From Pedococcus sp. 5OH_020 (GTDB lineage Bacteria > Actinomycetota > Actinomycetes > Actinomycetales > Dermatophilaceae), in the NCBI RefSeq assembly GCF_027812955.1, contig NZ_JAPYZV010000002.1, positions 186,001-250,000 of the forward strand: DNA of 64,000 nt, in the 5' to 3' direction. A program made the translations under genes and the position numbers. Shown piece after piece: positions 1,070 through 16,958 of the stretch. How positions within the stretch are numbered: position 1 is the first letter of the stretch; each line of letters starts with the position of its first letter. The notes below the pieces were generated by a model that saw only the letters and a list, made by a program, of their open reading frames with translations, was not told the DNA's origin and did no database searches.

Positions 1070-2035
1070 TTAGGCAGTGGCCTGAATGGCAGCCGAGGCG
1101 GCTACCGCTTCGCGTGCAAAGTAGGCGTCAGCGTCGCGGTAGAACAAGGCCCCGGGGTTCCGCATGCTGTCGTCCTCTTGGCGGTCCGCAAACCACTGCG
1201 TCACTGCCGCGACTACCACTCGCCTGCCAAGTCGCTCCGCTCCGTGGTGCATGACCCCGGCCAGCAATGAGATGTCGACGGGGACGGTCTCCGGCAGCGA
1301 GTGTGCGGCCTTTAGGGCGAAGATAGACGCAGCCTTCAGGCTCCAGTCCGTCGTCAGGGAATCGGAGCCCGCATCTGGATAGGCGGCCGCGAGCTCCTCA
1401 ACCGTGGTCTCCTGGGTCACGGTGAGGACCGGCCGCAGAGTACGTGCATTGCTAGTCTTCCGCGCCCCAGCATCCATGGTGGTGTGTTCGTTAGAGACGT
1501 TCAAACCGTTGGTTACGTTAGTAGGACATCCGGGGGACGCAGACATCTCCTTCGGGCCTCCGCCGGCCTCGCCGACTTTCTGCGCTGCGAGGGCCCTGGC
1601 CAGAGGACCAGCAACGCTCGAGGACTGGATCTGCCAACCACCGGCGGCCGGAGAGGGTTGGCGGATCAGGTTGTAGTCGATCGAGTAGTTGTTCGCTCGG
1701 CCCCCGGGACGCGGCGTGATCAACATCCCCTGCGCGTTGCGCGGCGCGCTGGCCAGCCGGTCGACTCTGATCAAACCCATCGTCTCTAGCTCGCCGACGG
1801 CCCGCTGAACGGTCTTGGCCGAACGTCCGATCTCCTTGCCGATCTTCTCGCAGCCCCAAAACGAGGCCCCGGTTTCGTAGTTCTGCCAACGGGAGATGTG
1901 GCGGAGGACTTTCTGCTGGGATGGCTTGGGCAGCACCGGACACCAGTGGTCGAGCCAATCATTCTTCATCTCAACGAACTGCTCCTTGGACAGCTCCGCC
2001 CACGGGGTGACGACCTCCGAACCGTGCCGCGCCAT
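1070..2035 (-). CDS. Replication-initiator-like winged-helix protein
   Basis: 321 residues starting at ATG 2035, behind an AAAGGAGAG site. An upstream in-frame extension to 2599 crosses the excisionase gene and reads as non-coding. Residues about 30-100 form a helix-turn-helix of the HTH_36 type: conserved tryptophans, then FWGCEKIGKEIGRSAKTVQR and a wing with GLIRVDRL. Proteins of this shape occur in actinobacterial plasmids and integrative elements as replication or transcription factors. The middle is low-complexity, and the C-terminus (about 215-315) is a separate helical domain. Its place between the excisionase-like gene and the integrase fits an element maintenance role. An actual replication function is inference. 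Confidence 0.65.
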   Translation of the reverse strand: MARHGSEVVTPWAELSKEQFVEMKNDWLDHWCPVLPKPSQQKVLRHISRWQNYETGASFWGCEKIGKEIGRSAKTVQRAVGELETMGLIRVDRLASAPRNAQGMLITPRPGGRANNYSIDYNLIRQPSPAAGGWQIQSSSVAGPLARALAAQKVGEAGGGPKEMSASPGCPTNVTNGLNVSNEHTTMDAGARKTSNARTLRPVLTVTQETTVEELAAAYPDAGSDSLTTDWSLKAASIFALKAAHSLPETVPVDISLLAGVMHHGAERLGRRVVVAAVTQWFADRQEDDSMRNPGALFYRDADAYFAREAVAASAAIQATA

Positions 2036-2208
2036 GCTGCTCTCTCCTTTCAAGGGTGATGCGTGCTGTGACTGCCTGCCTCGGCCTTCGACCTGGTTCG
2101 ACTGGGCTTGGGCAATGCCTGACCGGGGCCTCGGTGGCGGCCCTGCCCTGCCCCACCCGTCATGTTGTTCAGGGTTGGGGCAGGGGCAAGGCGGCCGTCC
2201 GCCCACTT

Positions 2209-2466
2209 CTAGAGGGATCGGGTTCCCGGCGCTATGGGTGGGAGTCGCTTGCTTGACGTCGCGGCCTGTTCGAGGAGGGCTTCTAGTGAGGCGGCCGGCA
2301 CAACGATGCGTCTGCCAAGCCGAAGGCTCGGCAGGTGGCCTTGCCGCACCATCTCGTACGCGAGCCCGCGGCCAATGCCTAACGCCTCCGCGGCCTCGAT
2401 CACGGTGAAGGTCAGCCGGTGACGCGCGCGGGCGCCCTGCTCGGCGGCCGCGGTGGAGGCGCTCAT
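2209..2466 (-). CDS. Excisionase-like MerR/HTH_17 DNA-binding protein
   Basis: 85 residues. A single helix-turn-helix spans about 18-60: FTVIEAAEALGIGRGLAYEM, followed by a wing with LPSLRLGRRIVVP. This is the excisionase (HTH_17) pattern. Such proteins bend attachment-site DNA and bias the integrase toward excision. The ATG at 2466 overlaps the stop of the upstream 105-residue gene (ATGA), so the two are translationally coupled. The gene lies between that small gene and the Rep-like gene, in the order expected for an element recombination module. Confidence 0.8.
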   Translation of the reverse strand: MSASTAAAEQGARARHRLTFTVIEAAEALGIGRGLAYEMVRQGHLPSLRLGRRIVVPAASLEALLEQAATSSKRLPPIAPGTRSL

Positions 2467-2780
2467 CCCTTAGCCCCGACCGCGTCGGCCGTGTGATCCG
2501 CCGCGGCCGCTTCTTCCCTGGCGGCTCGGCTCTGCGCTCGCTGGGCCAGCCTCTCCGCATAGGTGCTGGTGGGTGAGAGTTCGACCTGGAGATCGTCAAT
2601 CTCCTGCGCCTGGTCGTCGAGGATGTCCTCCAACCACGCCACCTGACGCAGCAGGATCTCTACTGCTCCCCACGCATCGTCTGCCGGGATCGGGTCATCA
2701 GGCAGTGGCCCGAATTCGTGTAGCGCGTTCAGCGTGACCATCTTGACGCCGTCAACCATGCGTTCCATTTCAAACTTCAT
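2463..2780 (-). CDS. Hypothetical acidic protein of the island
   Basis: 105 residues, no family recognised. The N-terminus (MKFEMERMVDGVKMVTLNAL) is followed by an acidic segment (about 24-60) and a predicted amphipathic helix WLEDILDDQAQEIDDLQVEL that could form a coiled coil. The tail is Ala/Arg-rich. The start at 2780 has an AAAAGGATG site. As first gene of a leftward operon with the excisionase-like gene (4-bp overlap), it may be a small regulator or accessory factor; that role is inference. Confidence 0.7.
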   Translation of the reverse strand: MKFEMERMVDGVKMVTLNALHEFGPLPDDPIPADDAWGAVEILLRQVAWLEDILDDQAQEIDDLQVELSPTSTYAERLAQRAQSRAAREEAAAADHTADAVGAKG

Positions 2781-3197
2781 CGGTCATCCTTTTCTAGTTC
2801 ACCTTGTGACGACGACTGCCGCCAGGGTGAAGTAAAGAGGAAATGTCGAATGTCAACCAACACAGCTGAAATGCTTGTCACTGCCATTTAGTTGCTACTT
2901 CAAAATCAAAGAAAATCGTCAATAATGCCAAAAATTGGCAATCGAACCCAAACGGCCACGCAGAGACTCGCTAGATGTGACCTGTATCACGTTGCCGGAT
3001 CGCGCCTCCGTCCCCGGCTGTGCACCGTAGGATTGGGGTAGCTCACGAGCGGCAGCGACAAGCACCTGGCTAGCTGTCCAGCAACCTCCTCCGCGGAGGT
3101 GCTCCAGGGGAAGAGCAGACCGCACCCATCAGAGCGCGGTAAAGGCGGATCTCCACGGGCGACCGAGGGGTCCAAGGACCCTCGAGGAGCACTTCCT
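2781..3197. promoter_or_regulatory. AT-rich divergent control region
   Basis: About 417 bp between the leftward hypothetical/xis/rep operon and the rightward second recombinase. The part from about 2830 to 2950 is strikingly AT-rich against the surrounding high-GC DNA and holds a perfect inverted repeat at 2926-2940. This is the expected place for both promoters and an operator, and possibly an origin for the Rep-like protein. No protein-coding frame is convincing. Confidence 0.5.
2926..2940. repeat. Perfect inverted repeat TGCCAA-N3-TTGGCA
   Basis: Six-base arms around an AAA centre in the AT-rich divergent region. The size and symmetry suit an operator for a dimeric repressor, perhaps controlling the switch between the xis/rep operon and the second recombinase. 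Only one copy was seen. Confidence 0.45.
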
Positions 3198-4223
3198 ATG
3201 CCCACCAAGAACACCCTCAGCCGCACTCGAGCCACGCAGACCGCGTCCGGGAGGCGAGCCTCACCCCATAACGGGGACTATGGGAGCTACGGGGTGGTGC
3301 TGGCCTTCCCCGCCCGCCTGCCCAATCCGGGCACCCGGGCCCAGTCGCTGGTAGCCGACTTCCTGACCTGCCACCGCGGCAACACCGCAGCCGCCTACCG
3401 GCGCGACCTGGCCGACTACCTGGCCTACTGCCACCGGCACGCCCTGGACCCGCTGCGCGCTCGCCGCGTCGACCTTGCCCGCTACCTGCAGGACTGTGAG
3501 GACCGGCCCTTGGCCCCGGCGACCATCGCCCGTCGCCTGACCGCGGTCAAGGGGTTCTACCTCTACTGCCACGACGAGGACCTGATTCCCGCCCCACCGG
3601 CGGCCCGGCTGACCTACAGACGTCAGCGCTCGCAAACCCGGATCCACGCCCTGACCGCCGCTGAGCTGTCCACCCTGCTGACCGCCGCGGACCAGCATTG
3701 CCCCCGCACCTCCGCCCTGACCTGGCTGCTGGCCACCACCGGCCTGCGAATCAGCGAAGCCTGCAGCGCACGCCTCGAAAACTTGCGGCACACCTCCGAC
3801 GGCACCTGGCTGGACGTCACCTGTAAGGGCGGGGTGCGCCGCAGTGTCCCCGTGCTTGCCCCTGCACTGCAGCGGATCCAGCTCTGGACACGTGAGGCTC
3901 CAAGCGGACCAGTCTTCGCCACCCGCACCGGCACCCCCCTGGACCGGCACGCCGCTGCCCGGACCCTGCGAGCCGTGGCTGCGGCCGTCGGGATCGCCCC
4001 GTTCAGCCCCCACGTGCTGCGCCACACCTTCGTCACCTTGGCCCGAGCCAACGGGTGCGCCCTCGAGGACGTCCAAGACGCCGCCGGCCACGCAGACCCA
4101 GCCACCACCCGCCGCTACGACCGGACCGTAGCCGGGACCGCCAGGCACCCAGGTCTGCCACTGCTGGCCACCCTCACGGACCACGGCCGGAACGGCACTT
4201 CTGACCTCGCCGACCACGACTGA
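3198..4223 (+). CDS. Second tyrosine recombinase (XerC/D-like)
   Basis: 341 residues. The start is ATG 3198 with GAGGAG 8 nt upstream; an earlier in-frame ATG at 3099 gives a poor N-terminus. The N-terminal SAM-like core-binding domain covers about 46-140 (VADFLTCHRGNTAAAYRRDL). The catalytic domain (about 148-325) has a full set of active-site residues: R184 in TGLRISEA, K210 in VTCKGG, H272-x-x-R275 in PHVLRHTF, H298 in AAGHAD and the nucleophile Y307 in RRYD. It is short like XerC/XerD and lacks an Arm-binding head, unlike the integrase at the left edge. It is transcribed away from the xis/rep operon. It may resolve multimers, move a nested element, or drive a second integration specificity. 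Confidence 0.9.
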   Translation: MPTKNTLSRTRATQTASGRRASPHNGDYGSYGVVLAFPARLPNPGTRAQSLVADFLTCHRGNTAAAYRRDLADYLAYCHRHALDPLRARRVDLARYLQDCEDRPLAPATIARRLTAVKGFYLYCHDEDLIPAPPAARLTYRRQRSQTRIHALTAAELSTLLTAADQHCPRTSALTWLLATTGLRISEACSARLENLRHTSDGTWLDVTCKGGVRRSVPVLAPALQRIQLWTREAPSGPVFATRTGTPLDRHAAARTLRAVAAAVGIAPFSPHVLRHTFVTLARANGCALEDVQDAAGHADPATTRRYDRTVAGTARHPGLPLLATLTDHGRNGTSDLADHD

Positions 4224-5824: not shown

Positions 5825-6532
5825 TCAGCCGCGGCCCCGGTTGCTCATGTAGTCCCAGATGGCGGCATCCAATGCCCCCACGTCCCAGGTCCGTTGTTTC
5901 GCAACCGCCGCCAGCACACCCTGCAACTGGTCATAGCGCAGGCCTTGCACGCCGGCCTCTTCGCCGAAACGACGAAGGTGGATGTCGATTGCCGCCTGGT
6001 CCGTCAGGCCCACCAAGATCCCCAGGTAGTCGAGGGTCTTGGGGCCGACTCCCTTGACTTGACTTAGCCGAGACACCGTCGCCTCTAGGGTGCCCTGATT
6101 CGTGAGGCGAGCCTTAAGGTCGTCGACTGTCTCGACCCGCAGGTCCTGCATCGCGTCTACGAGCCCCAATAGAGTCACCAGCTTCTTTCCACGCCAACGG
6201 AGGACTACAGCGACATCCTCGTTTAACAATCTACTGGCCATCCCCGAGGTGGTGTTGGCATCGGGCCACGCGCTCATGAGGTGGACTACCCGAGGGCGCA
6301 CCGTGGTGCGGTATCCGACGCCTGCCTGAAGCGAAGCGTCAACCAGGACCGCCCCCATATGCGGCCACCCTCGAGCCACTGCCACCGGCCGCAGACGGAG
6401 GGCGTCGATGTGGTGGGCAAGCTTCCGCACTTCATCAGGGTCAGGCACACCGCCAGTATGTCGCCCGGCGCCCCGCGCGCTCAGGTGCGGTGTGTCGGCC
6501 GGCACTGACACGCTTCTCGAATGCACAAACAC
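5825..6532 (-). CDS. Helix-hairpin-helix protein resembling an endonuclease III-type glycosylase
   Basis: 235 residues from ATG 6532; a GTG at 6448 (VPDPDEVRKLAHH) is an equally plausible start. The C-terminal half has a helix-hairpin-helix, SQVKGVGPKTLDYLGILVG (about 157-175), followed by AIDIHLRRFGEE (about 181-192). In endonuclease III the matching positions are the catalytic Lys of the hairpin and the catalytic Asp of the PVDTHVxR motif; here they would be K165 and D183. The iron-sulfur cysteines of that family are absent. This suggests a base-excision or DNA-lesion recognition enzyme. Target and activity are unknown. It stands alone on the minus strand among defence-type genes. Confidence 0.6.
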   Translation of the reverse strand: MFVHSRSVSVPADTPHLSARGAGRHTGGVPDPDEVRKLAHHIDALRLRPVAVARGWPHMGAVLVDASLQAGVGYRTTVRPRVVHLMSAWPDANTTSGMASRLLNEDVAVVLRWRGKKLVTLLGLVDAMQDLRVETVDDLKARLTNQGTLEATVSRLSQVKGVGPKTLDYLGILVGLTDQAAIDIHLRRFGEEAGVQGLRYDQLQGVLAAVAKQRTWDVGALDAAIWDYMSNRGRG

Positions 6533-7426: not shown

Positions 7427-8635
7427 TTGCCTAACCTGTCCGAGCTCACCGACCCGCGTGCAGTGAGACGTGCCGCTGAGGAGTTCAGGGACCTCGGGCG
7501 CGATGCCTTCCTGGCCAAGTACGAACTCACGCGGTCTACGGACTACTACGCCCTTATTGAAGGGCAGCTCATCGACTCCAAGCCTCTACTCGCGGTTGCC
7601 TACAGCAATCAGTATCCCGATCGAGGCCTGCTTCCCGTTGCCCGCTTCAGCGGTGGCACGGGGGGCGCGGTCCGGGCTCTCACGCGCCTGGGATTCGCAA
7701 CGACGACACGCGCCCTCCAGCAGCCTCCAGAGCTGGGCGATGAGTATCGAGACCGCACGGCCATCCAGGATGCGTACGGCGGTGACAGGGTTGCGGGCAT
7801 CATCCGCTTCCCCGGTGACGCTGTCGTGAATGTCTTCTCTGACGCCAGCGGTCCCTACGCCGATGACTCCCCATCGCTCCTGACTCCTTTCGGGTATCGC
7901 GGCGAAGGGCTCAGCGGGCCGCAACGCCTGGACCGAGGCGGCAACGCCCGCCTCGACGCGGCATTCCAAGCCGCGGTGCCTGTCCGGTTCTGGTACCGGC
8001 CAAAGGGCGAGCCGTTTCGGTTTCTTACGTGGGTGGTAGTGCTAGGTCGGGCGTGGGTGGCCGGCACTGGCCAGGATGGGCTGGACCGACCCGAGATTGA
8101 GTGGGAACTGGAGGCGGTTCCGGGCCCTGACTCGCACACGTGGCCCACGAAGGTGCACGAATCGCTAATTGACGCTCGAGAAACGACGGACAACAACCCT
8201 CAAGCCCCCGAGTCGCGGAGTCACACCTCATATGCTGACCTGGTAGATCGAGTAGACCAGCGGGGGCAAGGGCGGAGGTCAACCGGCGTGGTTCGTACCG
8301 ACTACGCGCGGAGTGCTGCTGCTCGACGAGCGGTCCTCGACCGGAGTGGCGGAGTCTGCGAAAGCGCAAGGTGCACGGGGATGCCTGCGGAGCTCAATCG
8401 ACAGGGGCGGGCAATCCTTGATGTTGACCACATAAAGGACCTAGCACTCGGCGGTGAAGACCATCCGCTGAACATGGTCGCCCTATGCCCCAACTGTCAC
8501 GCGTGCAAGACACGCGCCAAGAACGCCGTCGGCTGGCGCAAGGAGCTTCTTGCACACGCGCGGCAGGCACACACAAGGGCCCTAGCCGATAACGGTGCTG
8601 CAAACAACAACCCCCACCCCGGACAGCAGCTATGA
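7427..8635 (+). CDS. SRA-like/HNH endonuclease, type IV (McrA-like) restriction enzyme
   Basis: 402 residues. A TTG start at 7427 follows GAGG by about 7 nt. Residues 1-95 resemble the N-terminal head domain of ScoMcrA-like enzymes. Residues about 105-230 (AYGGDRVAGIIRF, FGYRGEGLSGPQRL, VPVRFWYR) look like an SRA-type modified-DNA reader. The C-terminal HNH nuclease (about 300-370) has DVDHIKDLALGGED with H335, N349, and LCPNCHACK with a zinc-type Cys pair; CESARC upstream supplies a second pair. Family members cut DNA carrying modified bases or phosphorothioates. The stop overlaps the next start (ATGA at 8632), tying it to the PD-(D/E)XK protein. The modification recognised cannot be told from sequence. 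Confidence 0.8.
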   Translation: MPNLSELTDPRAVRRAAEEFRDLGRDAFLAKYELTRSTDYYALIEGQLIDSKPLLAVAYSNQYPDRGLLPVARFSGGTGGAVRALTRLGFATTTRALQQPPELGDEYRDRTAIQDAYGGDRVAGIIRFPGDAVVNVFSDASGPYADDSPSLLTPFGYRGEGLSGPQRLDRGGNARLDAAFQAAVPVRFWYRPKGEPFRFLTWVVVLGRAWVAGTGQDGLDRPEIEWELEAVPGPDSHTWPTKVHESLIDARETTDNNPQAPESRSHTSYADLVDRVDQRGQGRRSTGVVRTDYARSAAARRAVLDRSGGVCESARCTGMPAELNRQGRAILDVDHIKDLALGGEDHPLNMVALCPNCHACKTRAKNAVGWRKELLAHARQAHTRALADNGAANNNPHPGQQL

Positions 8636-10188
8636 TCTCCCTGCCGGCGTTCCGCGGCTACGTGCTCGAGGAAGCCCTTGCCTACCTCCTCCAAAACAGC
8701 GGATACCGCCTGCTGGTGACTGCGAGCCAGGATCCCGATGCCTTATGTGCCGCCAGTAGTGGACTACGCGTGCGTGGCAGAGGGGCGGACCATCAGGTTG
8801 ATGTGCTGGGCGAATTGCTTGTCCCCACACCATTCTCACTACCGATGCGCATGTTCGCGGAGGCCAAGTGCGTCAGCGATCCGGTTGGACTGGCCACGAT
8901 ACGGAATGCGCATGGCGTGATTCATGACGTTAACGAGCAATTTGCCACAAGCAACGTCGCGGCGCGAGCAGTACCGCTACGCCGACATCACTACCGGTAC
9001 TCCCTGTTTTCCACCTCGGGCTTCACCGCTCCCGCACAGTCTTACGCCATGGCTCACCAGATCACCCTCGTCGATCTTTCTGGACCCGCATTCGCCACCC
9101 TTATCAGCACGGTCTTCCGCACGGCCGCGGACATCATGAACCTCATTCATGGTTCGGGCGTCCAGACCTTCCCAACCGCCGAGGTTCGGTCCCTGTTGCG
9201 CCTTGCCCTTGGCACGTGGACCGATGTGGACACTCACTCTTGGCTGGCCGACCTGCCGAAAGACAACGGGGAACTCCTCGAGGCTGTCGACGCCACCACA
9301 CCCATGAGTGGACTTCTCCCATGGGAAGACCTCGCAACTTTGGCCCTGCGCCTTCGCAAACGGTTGGGTCAAGACCTACTGTTTGGATTCCCCCAAGCGC
9401 CCTTCAGCCTCGTACTTCGCCCGGACAACTTGAAGGACTTTCTCAGGGCGATCGGCCGACGAGACGAAGTCCCTGTCAACATCCGCTTCGCCCGTCGGGG
9501 GGACGTAAGCGGGGACTGGGTACTGGTCCCAAGCGACGGCAGCGCTTCGTTCGTCCTGAGGTTCGGGATACCGGCCGTACTTGAGACCTGGCTACTGTCA
9601 GGCGGGTCTGGGGATACACCTGCATCTGCAACCCGATTGGCTCGAGCTGCAAAGTCTCAACTGCTAGGCGACATCGCGGTCTTCCATCACCAGCGCGTTG
9701 TCCACTTGAAATACGCACCGACCGAGTACGAACGCCCTCTGGACGAACAGCCCACGGAGTCACAAGCCGACGACTCGCAGCTGCGTAGGGCCCTTAGAGA
9801 TGAAGATCTCGGCCTCCCCCTGCCCGATGGACGACCGACCGCAAAGTGGTCCCCGGACTCAATACGCGAGCTCATGGCCAGACTTCGAACCCAACGCGCA
9901 CCGCAAGCCGATGTCATCCAGGCAGCCGCGAGGGCAGGCGGCGCACTGTCCCGCTCACAGGTCCTTGAGATCTGCGGCCCCGACATGGACCAACGATCAC
10001 TCACGTCATTCACGAAGCCCGTGAGTCGAGTAACCCGTCTACTTATTGCGCTCGGATCCGTACCGTCGCACGTCGAGCCGGCGTTGACTCCTCGGCCGGG
10101 ATTCACGCAAAAGTCCGCAGCGTTCGAGGTCCCGCCTGAGTTCATCCACGTCTTGGGCTTGGGGCACGATGACGAGCCCACCAGTTAG
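8632..10188 (+). CDS. PD-(D/E)XK nuclease-like protein coupled to the HNH enzyme
   Basis: 518 residues, translationally coupled to the HNH gene. The N-terminal domain (about 5-130) has a restriction-nuclease core: a helix with EEALAYLLQNSGY, D57 in HQVDVLGE, then E77 and K79 in MFAEAKC, a D-x19-E-x-K arrangement, followed by a helix with IRNAHGVIHDVNEQF. This is the Mrr-like layout. The remaining 380 residues match nothing I recognise; there is a beta-rich stretch around 275-330 (NIRFARRGDVSGDWVLVP) and a C-terminal helical segment (about 420-500). With its neighbour it would form a two-nuclease restriction module. The function is inferred from motif and operon. Confidence 0.65.
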   Translation: MISLPAFRGYVLEEALAYLLQNSGYRLLVTASQDPDALCAASSGLRVRGRGADHQVDVLGELLVPTPFSLPMRMFAEAKCVSDPVGLATIRNAHGVIHDVNEQFATSNVAARAVPLRRHHYRYSLFSTSGFTAPAQSYAMAHQITLVDLSGPAFATLISTVFRTAADIMNLIHGSGVQTFPTAEVRSLLRLALGTWTDVDTHSWLADLPKDNGELLEAVDATTPMSGLLPWEDLATLALRLRKRLGQDLLFGFPQAPFSLVLRPDNLKDFLRAIGRRDEVPVNIRFARRGDVSGDWVLVPSDGSASFVLRFGIPAVLETWLLSGGSGDTPASATRLARAAKSQLLGDIAVFHHQRVVHLKYAPTEYERPLDEQPTESQADDSQLRRALRDEDLGLPLPDGRPTAKWSPDSIRELMARLRTQRAPQADVIQAAARAGGALSRSQVLEICGPDMDQRSLTSFTKPVSRVTRLLIALGSVPSHVEPALTPRPGFTQKSAAFEVPPEFIHVLGLGHDDEPTS

Positions 10189-10238
10189 ACACTCCCTGCC
10201 GGACCGGCAGACACGCGGGGCCACAGAGCGGCACGAAG

Positions 10239-10883
10239 TCACCTTGGCCGAGCCTCGACAGGGCAGGCGACGATTGCGGCGCTACCGGTCAGGTTCAAGT
10301 CGGTCCCTGTCACGCCGACAACTGAGCCGGACGGAAGCTTAAAGCAAACACTCTCCCCAGTCGGCTTGGGCTCCGCCATAACCCCCACAGCAACAACAAC
10401 CAGAATGATCAGCAGCGCCGCGTAAAGCCACGTAAACAGACGGGTAAGAGACCTGCGCAGGGTCGACGGCCACCGCAAGTTGCGAAGATTCCTGGACATG
10501 CCGAATTCAAACGCATCCAGGTTCTTGAGTAGGCGCTCCTGAGCCTCGCCAGCCAGAGGTCCGTTAGCTTCCAAAGACCAGCTCACGCGACTTTGAAGAA
10601 TTCGCTCCAGCTTTACTGAACGCCCGTGTGCGATATCGCGAATAAAGCTGTTCCGAGTATCGATAAGGAAACCAACAACAATGATTGGGATGCCGGCTAG
10701 GGCCAGTTCCCAGCTGTGACTCGTGGCCGCCAGACCGGCCAATGCGGAAGCGAGAGGGATGACAACCGCCCGCGCCGCGGTTTCAATGTTGATCATGCGT
10801 GCGATGAACTCTGTGGTGCTTCGATAGTCTGCTTCGACGAGCCGTAGAACTTCCTCTACATTCTCATGAGCCTCGCTCATCAT
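10239..10883 (-). CDS. Membrane protein ending the KAP operon
   Basis: 214 residues, no known family. The N-terminal 35 residues are acidic and soluble. Two adjacent hydrophobic stretches at about 38-72 (VIPLASALAGLAA; LALAGIPIIVVGFLI) give one or two membrane segments. A helical soluble domain (about 75-150) precedes a clear transmembrane helix at about 152-170 (LYAALLIILVVVAVGVM). The last 45 residues would lie across the membrane with two Cys that could pair. Its ATG at 10883 shares bases with the TAA of the upstream gene (TAATG), so it is coupled. A membrane effector would suit an abortive-infection-type system; that is inference. Confidence 0.7.
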   Translation of the reverse strand: MMSEAHENVEEVLRLVEADYRSTTEFIARMINIETAARAVVIPLASALAGLAATSHSWELALAGIPIIVVGFLIDTRNSFIRDIAHGRSVKLERILQSRVSWSLEANGPLAGEAQERLLKNLDAFEFGMSRNLRNLRWPSTLRRSLTRLFTWLYAALLIILVVVAVGVMAEPKPTGESVCFKLPSGSVVGVTGTDLNLTGSAAIVACPVEARPR

Positions 10884-11350
10884 TACAGCCCCATGGCTTT
10901 CTCGTAGACGCGCAGCGACTCCTCCGCTGCCGCCAACGCGGCCGCCTCGGACTCCTCCTCACTGAGCCAATCGACAATCTTCTGCAGCAGTTCATGGAAA
11001 TACTCCAGGCGAAACGCTTGAGCGTCGTCCTCAGAATTCCCATAACTCAATTCTGGAACCAAACTAAAGAGCGGTTCCAAGTGAAACATTAGCGATTGCG
11101 CTTTGAGGGAACGCGGCGACTTCTGCAACTTTCGCCGTGCACTAGTCATTTCCACCTTTGACCGCGAGGTGAATCCTACGATATCGCGGCGAAGAAAATT
11201 CTTGGAGAACTGAGCAACGAAGTTCTCGGCGAAGATTAGAAGAACGTCGTCGCCGCGTATGGCGTCAGAGACGTTTACACGACTGGCCTCAATGTCGGCT
11301 GCGTATTCAGTAATGTAATCGAAGAGGGTGGCCTCGATGAGACTCGCCAT
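10883..11350 (-). CDS. Helical hypothetical protein of the KAP operon
   Basis: 155 residues, no family recognised. Predicted mostly alpha-helical, with a basic middle (TSRSKVEMTSARRKLQKSPR, about 61-80) and an acidic, Ala-rich C-terminal helix (WLSEEESEAAALAAAEESL). It starts 6 bp after the nucleotidyltransferase stop and overlaps the membrane-protein start. The tight packing with both neighbours suggests a complex partner or an antitoxin-like modulator. Base composition is noticeably less GC-rich than in the flanking chromosome, as in the rest of this operon. Confidence 0.7.
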   Translation of the reverse strand: MASLIEATLFDYITEYAADIEASRVNVSDAIRGDDVLLIFAENFVAQFSKNFLRRDIVGFTSRSKVEMTSARRKLQKSPRSLKAQSLMFHLEPLFSLVPELSYGNSEDDAQAFRLEYFHELLQKIVDWLSEEESEAAALAAAEESLRVYEKAMGL

Positions 11351-11356
11351 GCGCTA

Positions 11357-12124
11357 CTAGCTCCTGGCAACCTTGACGACGGCATCCATAGCCGACTCAA
11401 CCGCAGCGCGATCCGCCCTTCGACGATCCGGCGCAGACGCTCCCCGGTCGTGCACAAATTCATAGTATCCACGCAGATTCTTCAACGTAGCGATTTCACC
11501 GGCAAGGGAGGGCTCGATTTTCGAGTACGCGTCGAAGACTTCACCCCAATCGTACTTACGTACGCCCCGCTGCATAAGCTTTACGATAATCACGGAGCGA
11601 GCCAGCGTATAGAGCTGAGACAGTGTTGGTAAGAACTCGCCATTCATCCGCTCGAGATGACCCAATTTTTCGAGCAACCTAGTTCTGTCTTGCAATTCCT
11701 CTTCGAGGGCGCGCTGGTTCAATGGCGTAAGTGCCTCCATCTGCTCGTCCAACGCATCGAGCGCAGGCGTTCGATAGAGCACCACCCCCTCGTCGGCAAG
11801 ATGACCGCCGAAGGACGGCCTCGCCGCCAGTTCTCTTGAAAGGGAGGATGGCGTGAAGTAGATGGGGGTGAGTTTGTTCGCCAGAGGGGTGTCTGCCGAT
11901 GCCTTACGCAACACGCTGCTGATGGGACCTCTGTCCGTACCCTCTGCGAGGAGAACGATCAGGTCGACATCGCTGGAGGGTGTATCGCTACCTCTCGCCA
12001 ATGATCCGAAGACGATCACGCCCAACACGTCCTTTGACGCACCCAACCTTGCGGCTAGGGCTTCGAGGATCGTCCAGTACTCGGGTCGGCGTCGGGTCGC
12101 AGCGTTTGGGTCTATCTCGTTCAT
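11357..12124 (-). CDS. Nucleotidyltransferase with HEPN-like C-terminal domain
   Basis: 255 residues from ATG 12124, behind GGGGGTG. A longer frame to 12283 exists, but its extra 53 residues look non-coding. The N-terminal domain has the pol-beta/MNT motif VFGSLARGS...SDVDLIVLL (G40, S41, D52, D54). The third catalytic acid usually found in the next strand is not evident (LTPIYFTPSS). The C-terminal 140 residues are helical and contain R218-x6-H225 (RGYYEFVH), the spacing of a HEPN ribonuclease motif. In MNT-HEPN modules the transferase modifies and silences the HEPN toxin; here both may be fused. The gene sits in the KAP operon, 155 bp after the NTPase. Confidence 0.75.
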   Translation of the reverse strand: MNEIDPNAATRRRPEYWTILEALAARLGASKDVLGVIVFGSLARGSDTPSSDVDLIVLLAEGTDRGPISSVLRKASADTPLANKLTPIYFTPSSLSRELAARPSFGGHLADEGVVLYRTPALDALDEQMEALTPLNQRALEEELQDRTRLLEKLGHLERMNGEFLPTLSQLYTLARSVIIVKLMQRGVRKYDWGEVFDAYSKIEPSLAGEIATLKNLRGYYEFVHDRGASAPDRRRADRAAVESAMDAVVKVARS

Positions 12125-12279
12125 TCCAACACCCCCGCGTCTGCGAGTCCGGTTGCGTGGTGGCGCATGCCGTGAGCCTAACGGAGAGACCCGACAGGCA
12201 GATGAGGTCCGCTCAGAGGACGGAGGCAAGTCAGCGCTACCGGGGTGCGGGCGCGGTCGGTGAGCGTCTCGGACGCCTC

Positions 12280-15200
12280 TCATCCTTGGTGGTTCAAAAG
12301 ATCAGTCAGAGCCCCCTCAAAATCACGGTAGCCAGCCCTCAGGAGCCAGTCCGACAGTACGCCCACCGATACTTCCTCGGGCGACGGCGAGAAGCTAAAG
12401 GTGCCCTCTCCAAGGGATCTGATCTCCAGGGAGATTGCCGTCCCGAAGTCAGCCCTGGCGGAAGTCCCCAGGCGGCGTGCGTGGCGCAAGTCCACAGCAG
12501 CCCCTAATCCCCTCGGGGACTCAACGGCGATGTCGACGAGGGCCGCTGAAGCGCATTGCACCTGCGGCTGGGCCACAGCCAGGATTCGGATCGCGTCGCT
12601 CGCCGCTGCAATCATTGCCGCCAGCAGGTTAGTCGCTTCCCTCAGCGTTAGGGCCGCAGGAAACGGGGACTCGGCGGAGCGGGCATCCGATGGCCGTCGG
12701 TCTGGTCCGAGCTCCGCCATCCACAGTCCTACAGCAAGGGTGTACACCACAGGTGCGTTCTCCAGTTCACTCAATCGATGCGGTTCGGGAACCAGCACCT
12801 GAGCTCCGATACGTAGGGGCGGTTGTCGCGGGGAAGGGGACGCCTGGTCGCCAATTGCGCTCGTTCCCAGTTGGGCCTCGAGACGGCGGCCTGGATCTGC
12901 GTCTTTGAGCTCCCAAGACCCGGGTCGCACGTGCCACGAGGGGGCCGTAGAGCGCAACCAGCGTGCTACAGGGCTGTTGCTCAGGACGTCTTTGATCTGC
13001 CGTTCGACTCCCTGCCATCCGACCGGTGTGAATGGCTGACTTGCCACTTCGTTGGAACCTGGCTCTGTCGACACTTGCACGGCCACTCGGACAAGGAGGT
13101 CCGGCGCCTGCCCAGGGGCACGCATCAAATCCGGCCTATGGTTCAGTAAAGCCTGGCCGCGAGCCATAGGCTCGAGAGTCGGAAGTGATTGCCCGACGAG
13201 CGGGTCGTCCTGAAGGGTGCGGACGATGCCGGCAATGGCAATGAGCCGGCGATTCTTCCAACTCACATTATTCTCGTCATGCCCGCCCTCTGGCCGCTGT
13301 GCCGCCAGGGCCTCTTGGACGCCAGAATCGCTTCGGACTCTTTCCAGTCCCACACGTGTAGCAAAAGCGGTCGGGTCGAAACCCATAAGGGTTTCGTTTT
13401 GACCCGAAAGATCGGTCGCGGTCTCGACGAACCGTGCAGCAAGGTGCGGGACCTCAACCCCCATCTCCAGGGCCGCGCGGAGGCGACGGTCAATCTCCGC
13501 GCGCCCCACGGACCCCTCAAGCCAGTTCAGATACATCCCGGCTGGCTCTTCAGGTGCTTCATCGCCGGCACGGACGTTTTCCAAGAAGCGTAGCCAAACC
13601 AGAGATACCGTGGCGTCGACCATCCGCGCATACCAGCTGGGTCCCACCGGGACCGCGTCACGGCCGCTCTGACCATCGTCACGAGTTAGTCGGATCGCGC
13701 GAAGTAGGTGAGGCAGGGGAGACGCGACTCCAGGAGGCTTCGTGAATACCTGCAGCAGGTCGGCCGGCTCTGGCCCGTCAGCAATCGCAAGGAGCCTAGA
13801 GACCCAGGCCACCAAAGCACCCTCGAGGCCTACAGCGCCCCCTCCTAGACCAGACTTGTTCGGCAGAAGGCCAACAACGACCCGCAGCAAGTGAGCGGCT
13901 TGAGGTGGGGACAACTGGTCAGTGCGTGAGGACGCGCGGCGCACAATGATCGCAGCCGCGTCACACGCGCCCGCATCGCCCAGATCCGGCGTGAGCATTC
14001 TTCGCACGGCAAGCGCGTCCGCGCTTTCAACTTCATCTCCCACTGTCCACTCGTCCAAGACTGCGAGCAGAGTGGCGTCTGGGAGGTCGCCGCTTATGGG
14101 GCCAAGAGCGAAGTAGCGCGCCACAGTGTCCGGATCGCTGACCCTGCGATCACGCCGTCGGCGATCTTCTTCATAGACGTACTGGCTGTGCCCCTCCCCG
14201 CCAAGCAACGGAAACAACCTCACGAGCGCGGCCCGCACCTTCGCTTGGTCGGCCAAGGGCACGCTGAGATCAGTCAAGGTCACCTCCGTCAGCAAGGCGC
14301 TTCGGAACTCCTGGCCTTCCTTTTGGTGACGCCGCACAAGCAGCATTCGCCGCGCCGTCAGCCTTCTGTACAGCGCGGGGTAGGTCGTCCGGAGCAGTGT
14401 GACGACAAGAAAGTCGACGATGTCGATTTCGGAGTGGCCAATGAGCGGTAAATAGATGCGGAGTTGGGAAAGGAATCGTCGGATGGTACGCGGCTCGGTG
14501 AGGGCACTGTTGAGTAGCTGCTCGCGCTCCTCCGCGATGCGCTCTTGCTGGTCTTCGGTGAGAGCCGCGTGGCCAGTCAGTCGGAGCACTTCAGTCAGCC
14601 CATTCTCGAAGAGGCTTTGTGCTTGCTCCGGTCGGGTGGGCGGCTGTTCAAGGGGCAGCGCGACGATCTTCTCGAGAAATGACAACGGTCGCGACGTGTC
14701 GCGTGCGGCGAGAGCCGTGCTGGACAACACGTCCAGGAGCGTCTGCTGGTCGTAGGCCAAGAGGTAGTGCACGTACGGCAGCCTTCCCAGCACACGGACG
14801 GCCTTGAAGAGTGCTAAGAGTTCGTCGGGCTGCAGGCGGTCGACGTCATCGACAATGAGGAGAATCGGCTGGGCAAGGTCCGTCAACGCTTCTGCAAGGT
14901 CCCGCGTCCGTTCATGAACGGTTCCTTCGCCTGACACTCGCTGCAAAACAGCATCGGTAAGGCCTTTGGCCGCAGCGCCGGCGAAGGGAATGGCAAGCAG
15001 TGCGGGAGAAACGAGCGAGCCATACTTCTTTAGGGCTTTTTGCGCAGCTTCGCCCCGACTTCCGGTCTTGGGTATGGCAGCCGATATGGCAGCCAGGAGT
15101 TCAGCAATGATGGCGTCCGGCCCGGAGACGGCCCATGGAGTCAGGTGCTTGACCCGCCAACGGCTCGTCTCTAGACCCTCGACGATCATGTTTACCGAGC

Positions 15201-15402
15201 TGGTCTTGCCGCTACCCCAAGGGCCCACCACTCCAATTACTGTGCTGTCCGACGTCGAGGCGATCTCATTCAACAGCTCACGGGCCCTGCTGATGAAGGC
15301 TTTACGGCCCAGACCGTCCTCGGCGGACCTCTCAAGTGCGGTGTCAACCAGCCAGCTTCTGCCAGGCCCAGCGTGGGCGTCCACGGAGTGTGTCTCAGCC
15401 AT
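12280..15402 (-). CDS. KAP-family P-loop NTPase
   Basis: 1,040 residues from ATG 15402, preceded by GGGAAGG; a GTG two codons earlier is possible. The Walker A is GPWGSGKT (60-67) and the Walker B LLIVDDVDRL (181-190), with PFLEK-like sensor text further on (SFLEKIVALPLEQPP). A hydrophobic segment lies between them at about 129-150 (LVSPALLAIPFAGAAAKGL), where KAP NTPases carry membrane inserts, although it is weaker than in classic members. The remaining 700 residues are a large helical region of unknown fold. KAP NTPases include PifA of plasmid F, which blocks phage T7, and are usually encoded on mobile DNA. As first gene of a four-gene operon it is probably the sensor/motor of a defence module; that is inference. 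Confidence 0.85.
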   Translation of the reverse strand: MAETHSVDAHAGPGRSWLVDTALERSAEDGLGRKAFISRARELLNEIASTSDSTVIGVVGPWGSGKTSSVNMIVEGLETSRWRVKHLTPWAVSGPDAIIAELLAAISAAIPKTGSRGEAAQKALKKYGSLVSPALLAIPFAGAAAKGLTDAVLQRVSGEGTVHERTRDLAEALTDLAQPILLIVDDVDRLQPDELLALFKAVRVLGRLPYVHYLLAYDQQTLLDVLSSTALAARDTSRPLSFLEKIVALPLEQPPTRPEQAQSLFENGLTEVLRLTGHAALTEDQQERIAEEREQLLNSALTEPRTIRRFLSQLRIYLPLIGHSEIDIVDFLVVTLLRTTYPALYRRLTARRMLLVRRHQKEGQEFRSALLTEVTLTDLSVPLADQAKVRAALVRLFPLLGGEGHSQYVYEEDRRRRDRRVSDPDTVARYFALGPISGDLPDATLLAVLDEWTVGDEVESADALAVRRMLTPDLGDAGACDAAAIIVRRASSRTDQLSPPQAAHLLRVVVGLLPNKSGLGGGAVGLEGALVAWVSRLLAIADGPEPADLLQVFTKPPGVASPLPHLLRAIRLTRDDGQSGRDAVPVGPSWYARMVDATVSLVWLRFLENVRAGDEAPEEPAGMYLNWLEGSVGRAEIDRRLRAALEMGVEVPHLAARFVETATDLSGQNETLMGFDPTAFATRVGLERVRSDSGVQEALAAQRPEGGHDENNVSWKNRRLIAIAGIVRTLQDDPLVGQSLPTLEPMARGQALLNHRPDLMRAPGQAPDLLVRVAVQVSTEPGSNEVASQPFTPVGWQGVERQIKDVLSNSPVARWLRSTAPSWHVRPGSWELKDADPGRRLEAQLGTSAIGDQASPSPRQPPLRIGAQVLVPEPHRLSELENAPVVYTLAVGLWMAELGPDRRPSDARSAESPFPAALTLREATNLLAAMIAAASDAIRILAVAQPQVQCASAALVDIAVESPRGLGAAVDLRHARRLGTSARADFGTAISLEIRSLGEGTFSFSPSPEEVSVGVLSDWLLRAGYRDFEGALTDLLNHQG

Positions 15403-15631
15403 GATCACCTTCCCTGACGATTCGAGCCTGAAGCACCGAAGCCACGATTCAGCGGCGCGATAGGGAAGCAGGGTAACCGCAGCGGCTGGGCAGCGAGAGG
15501 AAGACGTGCATTTCGGATCGCCGCACTAAACGGCTCGTGCGTCAGACGAGTCGTATTCAGCCTCGGGCGCCCAGGCCGCAGTAGAACAGAATGGATTTTC
15601 GCGGAGCCAGGTGTTGCCTGGTTCGAGTTGC

Positions 15632-16567
15632 CTAGGGAAAGCTGGTACGGCCTGCAATCCTGTGCACCCGGCGCTTGGCGGCCGAAACATCCGCCCAGTC
15701 CTTGTAGAGGGCGGCCCGCTCAACTGCCCTGTTGCGCGCTACGACATTGAGGCGGTAGCCCACAAGTAGCACAAGTATGCCACCTGTGACCCAGTATGGC
15801 GGGGCTGCCAGGGTGCCGACGAATGCGTGAGGAACCCTAAGTAGGTTTGCGCCCACGATCACGGAGCCAAGGGTCATCAGAATCTGTCCCATTGCCCCAA
15901 GACTCACCGACGCTTCCTCGCACAGCCGTGCGTAGTGCCTCGCCGCCGCAGGGGTCATGCGCGGCCCCGGTTGCGGCCAGCGACCTCCAAAAAGCGACGT
16001 GTGAACGACACCCTCATGTTCCACTTCCTGCCATGCATCCAGTGCTGGTCTGCCTCGGTGGCTCAACTGATCTCGGGCCGCGCGAAGAGCAAACACTGCC
16101 GTGGCGAGGATGAAGCCGCATGCTCTCCCGAGGCTCAAACCGGCAATCATGGCAACGGCCAACGCAACCAGGGCACTTCGCAAGGTTGCGAGGTCCGCCA
16201 AGCGCATCATGAGAAGCAGAGTGACGAAACAGGTGAGGCGAAAGGCCCATCGCTCTAGCCGTCGGGGCCAGCCCGTTCCCACGGGTGATCGCCACTGATC
16301 GTCAGAAGCAAGAACTACGAGGAAGGCGCAGAGCACGAGAGTCAGAGCCCATCCCGTGACACCGGTCTGCAGGTCGCGCACGGCTAGCCCAAGCCAACCA
16401 AGCAATACAGATGGCACTCCTGCAGAAGCCACAAGAAGTCTCGCCCCCGCATCGGCTAGCGCTGAGATCCGATAGACGGGTGGGAGCGGCGCGCCCACGG
16501 GTCGGCGCGCGATCATGAGTCGGGGGCCCTTTGGTGGATGCATAACCGAGTGAACCTCCCCCTTCAC
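15632..16567 (-). CDS. Multi-pass membrane protein, unknown family
   Basis: 311 residues from GTG 16567, whose bases overlap the stop of the 108-residue gene upstream (GTGA). Hydrophobic segments at about 42-62, 72-90, 108-127, 130-155, 230-250 and 255-278 make about six membrane helices. A soluble loop lies at about 160-225 (SHRGRPALDAWQEVEHEGVV). No known family was recognised. It lies next to the attachment site at the distal end of the island and is coupled to a small soluble partner. Together they could be a toxin/immunity or membrane-effector pair, but nothing in the sequence proves it. Confidence 0.65.
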   Translation of the reverse strand: MKGEVHSVMHPPKGPRLMIARRPVGAPLPPVYRISALADAGARLLVASAGVPSVLLGWLGLAVRDLQTGVTGWALTLVLCAFLVVLASDDQWRSPVGTGWPRRLERWAFRLTCFVTLLLMMRLADLATLRSALVALAVAMIAGLSLGRACGFILATAVFALRAARDQLSHRGRPALDAWQEVEHEGVVHTSLFGGRWPQPGPRMTPAAARHYARLCEEASVSLGAMGQILMTLGSVIVGANLLRVPHAFVGTLAAPPYWVTGGILVLLVGYRLNVVARNRAVERAALYKDWADVSAAKRRVHRIAGRTSFP

Positions 16568-16912: not shown

Positions 16913-16958
16913 ACTTTTAATCCGTAGGTTGTCGGTTCGAATCCGACGGGGCCCACCA
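16913..16958 (+). repeat. Displaced 3' half of tRNA-Lys(TTT): attachment site
   Basis: The sequence from the anticodon loop (ACTTTTAA) through the TCCGT stem, a perfect T-arm (GTCGG TTCGAAT CCGAC), acceptor strand GGGGCCC and ACCA is intact, but no D-arm or 5' acceptor strand (GGGCCCC) lies upstream. The bases before it (TAGGC) do not pair properly with the anticodon stem. This is what remains when an element supplies a new 3' end to the tRNA at its other junction. It marks the right end of the island and predicts the intact tRNA-Lys beyond the left window edge, on the plus strand. Confidence 0.8.

Follow-up and report, generated by a model that had tools for sequence, protein, structure and literature searches.

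A rare three-gene cassette with a probably HalB-like nucleotidyltransferase and a predicted membrane protein, next to a PifA-like KAP NTPase gene on a BREX-bearing element of Pedococcus sp. 5OH_020

The window analysed is a stretch of 64,000 nucleotides of the Pedococcus sp. 5OH_020 genome (contig NZ_JAPYZV010000002.1, positions 186,001 to 250,000), and the four genes under study are all located on its minus strand. The first of them, KAP (12280..15402), encodes a PifA-like KAP NTPase of 1040 aa, as indicated by Pfam, PADLOC and motifs. It is followed by NT (11357..12124), whose 255-aa product is a two-domain nucleotidyltransferase with a helical C-terminal domain, probably HalB-like according to sequence, profile and fold. 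MID (10883..11350), of 155 aa, separates NT from MEM in every copy found and was recognised by position and identity, and MEM (10239..10883) encodes a 214-aa protein, predicted from its hydrophobic segments to be a membrane protein and presumed to be the effector. KAP and NT are separated by 155 bp (12125..12279), NT and MID by 6 bp, and MID and MEM overlap in the sequence TAATG; the strand, the coordinates and the junctions are those given in a first-pass annotation of this DNA. The start of KAP was placed at the ATG at 15402, with an alternative GTG at 15408, and the start codon of NT is the one chosen in that annotation. A promoter scan of positions 10100-15700 gave no sigma-70 consensus site (1.1 expected by chance). 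Nevertheless, NT, MID and MEM, hereafter the cassette, may have a promoter of their own, given the 155-bp gap and the 214-bp gap found upstream of NT in Phycicoccus sp. HDW14, where the cassette is placed behind an unrelated gene encoding a D12 class DNA adenine methylase. A break in base composition across the KAP/cassette boundary was also considered (total GC 0.53-0.58 versus 0.625; third-position GC 0.63-0.66 versus 0.68) and was not used as an argument because the third-position values were not clearly different. Upstream of KAP and on the same strand, positions 15632-16567 encode a 311-aa protein with several hydrophobic segments and without a family match in Pfam, PADLOC or NCBIfam.

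The KAP protein matched Pfam KAP_NTPase at 1.5e-40 and PADLOC PifA at 1.5e-52, the latter covering residues 22-511. The Walker A motif GPWGSGKTS and PILLIVDDVDRL were present in the protein, and Walker A and B could both be read as intact, in agreement with the first-pass annotation. The protein thus resembles the PifA-type KAP NTPases in its domain, in both motifs and in the PADLOC match, and differs from them in its length, with a long C-terminal half left unmatched. It differs as well in its surroundings, as the relatives read elsewhere do not adjoin an NT-MID-MEM cassette.

The genes are located on a mobile element limited by a tRNA-Lys repeat. A 44-bp sequence identical to the 3' end of a tRNA-Lys gene was identified on the plus strand at window positions 16913..16956, where it marks the right end of the element, and the other copy is found to the left of the window (G000:C22:170862-170905), inside a complete tRNA gene. 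Both repeats bound an element of 32,095 bp, which carries six type 1 BREX genes (brxA, brxB, brxC, pglX, pglZ and brxL) at G000:C22:171197-184516 (L071:3197-16516), left of the window. A phage-integrase-family gene adjoins the BREX genes, and a second tyrosine recombinase is encoded at window positions 3099-4223. Because this tRNA-Lys element carries BREX genes, the defence-island setting assumed earlier is supported. Every one of the other ten genomes of this genus gave a match to the tRNA region. In four genomes (G072, G098, G124 and G1223) the right-hand flank was found on the same contig at 5.1-22.6 kb from the same tRNA-Lys, with a further partial repeat between them in three of the four; these distances and repeats point to a hotspot-like site, and therefore the tRNA-Lys gene is probably an integration hotspot with changing cargo. 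Blastn over 12 loci, each about 3 kb long, from the tRNA-Lys regions of the genus gave no clean empty integration site: four loci contained the left flank and none the right flank.

Two other features of the element were recorded. At window positions 7427-10188, an HNH gene (PADLOC mREase_IV, 7.5e-59) overlaps an Mrr_cat gene, both convergent with the cassette, and this pair is perhaps a two-gene restriction system. Positions 5825-6532 encode a protein of 235 aa whose helix-hairpin-helix matches are weak and below the cut-off; it is perhaps a relative of DNA glycosylases.

Beyond the window, NT, MID and MEM were found in the same order and on one strand in three further copies, one in Phycicoccus sp. 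HDW14 and two in G684, a genome of another family of the phylum. The HDW14 proteins are 46% (NT), 46% (MID) and 45% (MEM) identical to those of the window over nearly their full length, and therefore the three are real genes. Gaps are of 4 and 2 bp in the HDW14 cassette and, wherever the copies could be read, of a few bases or replaced by overlaps. On G684 contig C15, NT (tblastn 5e-31) precedes a partly masked middle gene and a 210-aa MEM (tblastn 0.002), with a Mutator-transposase-like ORF upstream (Pfam 0.0042, below cut-off) and a phage-integrase-family gene downstream. On G684 contig C84, the end of NT is followed by MID (tblastn 8e-11) and a 173-aa MEM, and the upstream side is the contig end; this MEM gave no tblastn match at 0.01 and was assigned by its position and by an alignable N-terminal part (22% identity). 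G684 thereby harbours two diverged copies (L037 and L038), in one of which MEM is devoid of the Cys tail described below. The preserved order across these copies makes it almost certain that NT-MID-MEM is a conserved unit.

The cassette is rare in the genomes sampled, with only four copies in all; G684 holds two of these, one of which is cut. Four overlapping genome sets were searched with NT or MEM. In the family set (n=149), NT matched 12 genomes at 1e-3, nearly full-length only in its own genome (5e-165) and in HDW14 (G146; 1.5e-67), whereas its only match at 1e-8 in the order set (n=396) was its own genome. The NT profile at 1e-6 matched 28 genomes of the phylum set (n=396); beyond its own genome, a nearly full-length NT was present only in G684 (1.6e-39), together with the second copy cut by the contig end, and the other 26 genomes were matched in part. 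The MEM profile at 1e-4 matched only its own genome in the class set (n=394), and among 16 genomes of the order of G684 a match at 1e-7 was restricted to G684. A first scan of genome contigs yielded no cassette relative and a profile scan yielded one locus, that of HDW14. Additionally, no relatives were detected in plasmids by tblastn with NT, MID, MEM and the C15 NT of G684, in phages by a search with NT, or in viral contigs by a KAP scan and four scans with cassette profiles.

The first-pass annotation had suggested that the four genes form one composite system and had proposed a search for the same four-gene order. The search recovered NT-MID-MEM in order, whereas KAP was absent from the loci of the other copies: tblastn at 0.01 gave no KAP match within contig reach of the three (L036, 16.7 kb; L015, 20 kb; L037, 6.7 kb; L038, 5.5 kb; both G684 contigs being short), with upstream sequence readable in two of them and the third beginning at a contig end inside NT. 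From the opposite side, KAP relatives at 1e-30 were present in 11 of 148 family genomes, namely its own and ten others, and only one of these ten, HDW14, bears the cassette, at a distance of 333 kb from its KAP relative. There are twelve other KAP locations, and seven of them, each in a different genome, were read over 3.4-6.0 kb on either side, except for one that ended after 0.8 kb at a contig end; these neighbourhoods gave no match to NT, MID or MEM (blastp and tblastn, 1e-3). Since KAP is missing at the other cassette loci, its relatives mostly lack the cassette, and both are far apart in HDW14, one four-gene system was not supported. KAP very probably does not form part of the conserved cassette, and is probably a separate PifA-like gene residing in the same island. 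The relatives compared were 28-37% identical to KAP and most of them matched over its first half only, which leaves room for a closer ortholog associated with the cassette. The KAP relative of HDW14 (L063:3411-5579) is short (343 aa), abuts transposase genes and is probably truncated.

The four-gene composite, an abortive-infection system made of a KAP NTPase, a nucleotidyltransferase-HEPN RNase, MID and MEM, agrees with the adjacency of the genes on one strand, with the 155-bp gap and with the similar third-position GC of all four (0.63-0.68). It is nonetheless very improbable, as it is opposed by the distribution of KAP just described and by the tail of NT. Residues R218 and H225 of the window NT do have the R-x6-H spacing noted earlier, and the HEPN catalytic motif is defined as R-x4-6-H. 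However, the motif is kept in only two of the four copies, those of the window and HDW14; the corresponding positions are Arg and Ile in G684 C15 and Ala and Thr in G684 C84. As both G684 copies are devoid of the His and one of them of the Arg, a HEPN RNase was ruled out as a conserved feature, and the earlier reading of the tail along these lines was not supported. We assume that the helical domain could well fall within the broad HEPN/KNTase-C group.

The GS-x10-DxD motif of an MNT-type transferase is present at residues 40-54 of NT, as had been described, and NT matched Pfam NTP_transf_2 at 1.3e-7. When a profile of the four NT copies was compared with all PDB chains, HalB of the Hailong system ranked first and second (whole-sequence E values of 3.9e-6 and 4.8e-6; 165 profile positions), followed by a minimal nucleotidyltransferase (1.5e-4) and by aminoglycoside and Mnt enzymes at 0.007 and worse; by best domain HalB was weaker (7.8e-5), with the minimal enzyme next at 1.9e-4. 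For a HalB-family set, 21 plasmid records were matched by a HalB piece, six of which were taken and their nucleotidyltransferases aligned; of two scanned against the HalB cut-off, one was over it (220.8 bits) and one far below (53.3 bits). A single hhalign comparison of the NT copies with the six proteins gave a probability of 96 and an E value of 4.2e-9 over 144 columns. Structure prediction, proposed at the outset, was successful for NT, with a usable AlphaFold2 model from two sequences (pLDDT 80), but not for MID, whose model was unusable (pLDDT 46). Using the NT model, Foldseek placed HalB (9dbj) at rank 1 (E 7.7e-6), AAD(9) at rank 2 (1.1e-5) and AadA at 2.0e-5, with MNT-HEPN entries from rank 28 on. 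By query TM-score and rmsd, the aminoglycoside enzymes AAD(9) and AadA were slightly better (0.46-0.49, about 8 A) than HalB (0.42-0.45, 10-11 A).

When the three complete cassette NTs were aligned with the HalB piece and with five of the six plasmid nucleotidyltransferases, residues G40, S41, R44, G45, S51, D52, D54, L95, F105, H108, E112 and R176 were invariant. The motif F-x2-H-x3-E after DxD, which was picked after viewing the alignment, was found in all three complete cassette NTs, in all six plasmid HalB-family proteins and in none of 25 other nucleotidyltransferases, these controls coming from 29 scanned loci (four without a GS..DxD protein) and including no aminoglycoside enzymes. Homology to HalB, as seen by profile, hhalign, fold and motif, reaches in this way beyond the catalytic core, with the aminoglycoside enzymes also close by fold, and NT is very likely HalB-like. 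NT was nevertheless well below the curated cut-offs. Against NCBIfam HalB (NF051895, cut-off 190 bits), the NTs of the window, HDW14 and G684 C15 scored 18.3, 26.4 and 23.5 bits, and against MntA (NF047752, cut-off 60 bits) the window, HDW14 and G684 NTs scored 30.0 (E 3.7e-7), 32.4 and 21.2 bits, so that MntA is ranked over HalB for the first two and HalB over MntA for G684. That a third acid was not evident, as previously remarked, was also confirmed. The third acid of HalB is a Glu, presumed as such from the motif given in the part of PMC12265719 dealing with it; it aligns with T86 of the window NT, and is Thr in HDW14, Ser in G684 C15 and Ser too in the five aligned plasmid HalB-family proteins. 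NT may therefore be inactive or yield a different product.

MID gave no match in Pfam, PADLOC or PHROGs (noise only in the latter), and its best values in NCBIfam (0.012) and PDB (1.4) were at noise level; as judged from its sequence, it is of no known family. MEM presents hydrophobic segments at residues 35-54, 56-76 and 145-176, which fits its earlier description as a membrane protein. The HDW14 protein also has three such segments, and in G684 two stretches exceed the threshold in one copy and a single stretch in the other; by position, a membrane protein gene stands beside NT in the four copies, with weaker segments in both of G684. Two Cys in the C-terminal tail of MEM are common to three of the four copies, as the C84 protein ends before the tail. 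No Pfam family was matched by the window MEM, PADLOC gave only a 4TM effector at 0.032, and HalA (NF051894) was matched by neither the window nor the HDW14 protein in NCBIfam. One MEM copy out of four weakly matched DUF2270, below the cut-off (20 versus 25 bits), and MEM is at most a candidate for that family.

Defence systems in which the product of a nucleotidyltransferase keeps an effector inactive have only lately been described; the relevant sections of PMC12265719 and PMC12657230 present as such Hailong, MISS/Panoptes and, in part, Clover. According to those sections, the negative regulator in Hailong is oligodeoxyadenylate (PMC12265719), and ssDNA oligomers made by the nucleotidyltransferase suppress the effector until a phage exonuclease lifts the suppression (PMC12657230); the components they name are HalA and HalB, with no third gene. 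The cassette shares with Hailong the relationship of NT to HalB by profile, profile-profile, fold search and motif, as well as a MEM gene beside NT in an operon, as HalA is beside HalB. It differs in that MEM has no HalA match, MID is inserted between NT and MEM, the NTs lie far below the HalB cut-off (18-26 versus 190 bits across copies) and the presumed third acid is Thr or Ser. The system had been considered unrecognised, which must be amended as far as NT is a relative of HalB and holds for the remainder, which has no known match. On sequence grounds, it is a candidate nucleotidyltransferase-controlled membrane module related to Hailong and outside its definition, for lack of HalA, for an NT below the cut-off and for the extra gene.

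Our preferred explanation, to which we give a probability of about 0.5, is a Hailong-like, NT-controlled membrane effector with an additional component, located beside an independent PifA-like KAP gene. In a healthy cell, MEM would be kept silent by the NT product, either a nucleotide or a nucleic acid, or by a nucleotidylated partner, and MID would link NT and MEM as adaptor, acceptor or sensor. Phage infection would remove the NT product, after which MEM would open or break the membrane and the cell would die before phage release. An antiphage role of the cassette is likely by analogy, and the inhibitory direction of this control, a guard logic also borrowed from Hailong, has a chance close to even, if somewhat lower. 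It is rather doubtful that the cassette represents a distinct class, in which a HalB-like enzyme lacking the typical third acid, a new acceptor or sensor (MID) and a new membrane protein with a disulfide-capable tail would carry out inhibitory signalling around a non-HalA effector.

Other functions were weighed against a Hailong-like control. MntA adenylylates HepT, and the cassette could similarly be a toxin-antitoxin unit in which MEM or MID would be the toxin, NT an MNT-type antitoxin adenylylating it, and phage defence a by-product. Among the curated NCBIfam models, the window NT indeed scores best with MntA (30 versus 18 bits for HalB), the same being true of HDW14 (32.4 versus 26.4), small partner genes adjoin NT, Foldseek lists the MNT-HEPN entries mentioned above, and MID, whose fold has no usable model, could be a HEPN-like toxin. 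As in the MNT-HEPN and MntA-HepT type VII systems, a minimal GS..DxD core precedes a helical domain in NT; unlike in them, both domains are in one protein of the window and the partner is a membrane protein, R-x6-H is found in half of the copies and NT falls short of the 60-bit MntA cut-off. Moreover, PDB profile and fold searches place HalB above MntA, the G684 NT scores higher with HalB (23.5 versus 21.2 bits) and no adjoining gene was recognised as a HEPN toxin in Pfam, PADLOC or NCBIfam, which makes this explanation unlikely, although it is the one we would consider after a Hailong-like control.

Some CBASS operons likewise pair a nucleotidyltransferase with a membrane effector in their layout, and MEM could instead be switched on by a nucleotide messenger made by NT upon infection. 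Apart from that layout, this activation is suggested by PADLOC matches to a CBASS-type cyclase (CD-NTase; 0.014 for NT) and to the 4TM effector (0.032), but both are at noise level and NT is related to HalB, whose product represses its effector, so that we consider it improbable. Finally, the closeness in fold of AAD(9) and AadA to NT would agree with a role outside defence, in which NT would adenylylate small molecules and MEM would be its transport-like partner. This is the least probable of the readings, given the HalB-like F-x2-H-x3-E signature, the maintenance of the three genes together, the location of the window copy on a BREX island and of a G684 copy near an integrase gene, and the few membrane segments of MEM.

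If a Hailong-like control of MEM is true, a HalB relative working with a third protein and a different membrane partner would reveal that the enzyme is a reusable control module, and the uncharacterised families MID and MEM would gain a testable role.

Some loci containing HalB-family genes were also observed during the comparisons. In Rhizobium sp. N324 (L046:2108-3675), a pentapeptide-repeat membrane protein and a nucleotidyltransferase gave HalA and HalB matches that fall far short of the cut-offs; in the weakly HalA-like protein, two hydrophobic segments come after the pentapeptide repeats, and both genes are perhaps a divergent Hailong-like pair. On the rhizobial plasmids L041-L045, at about 2000-3680, HalB-family nucleotidyltransferase genes are placed directly behind a WYL regulator gene and no HalA gene is annotated beside them. 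The WYL regulator of L041, the one searched, matches CapW, and in L045 the HalB-family nucleotidyltransferase gene adjoins CBASS-annotated genes.
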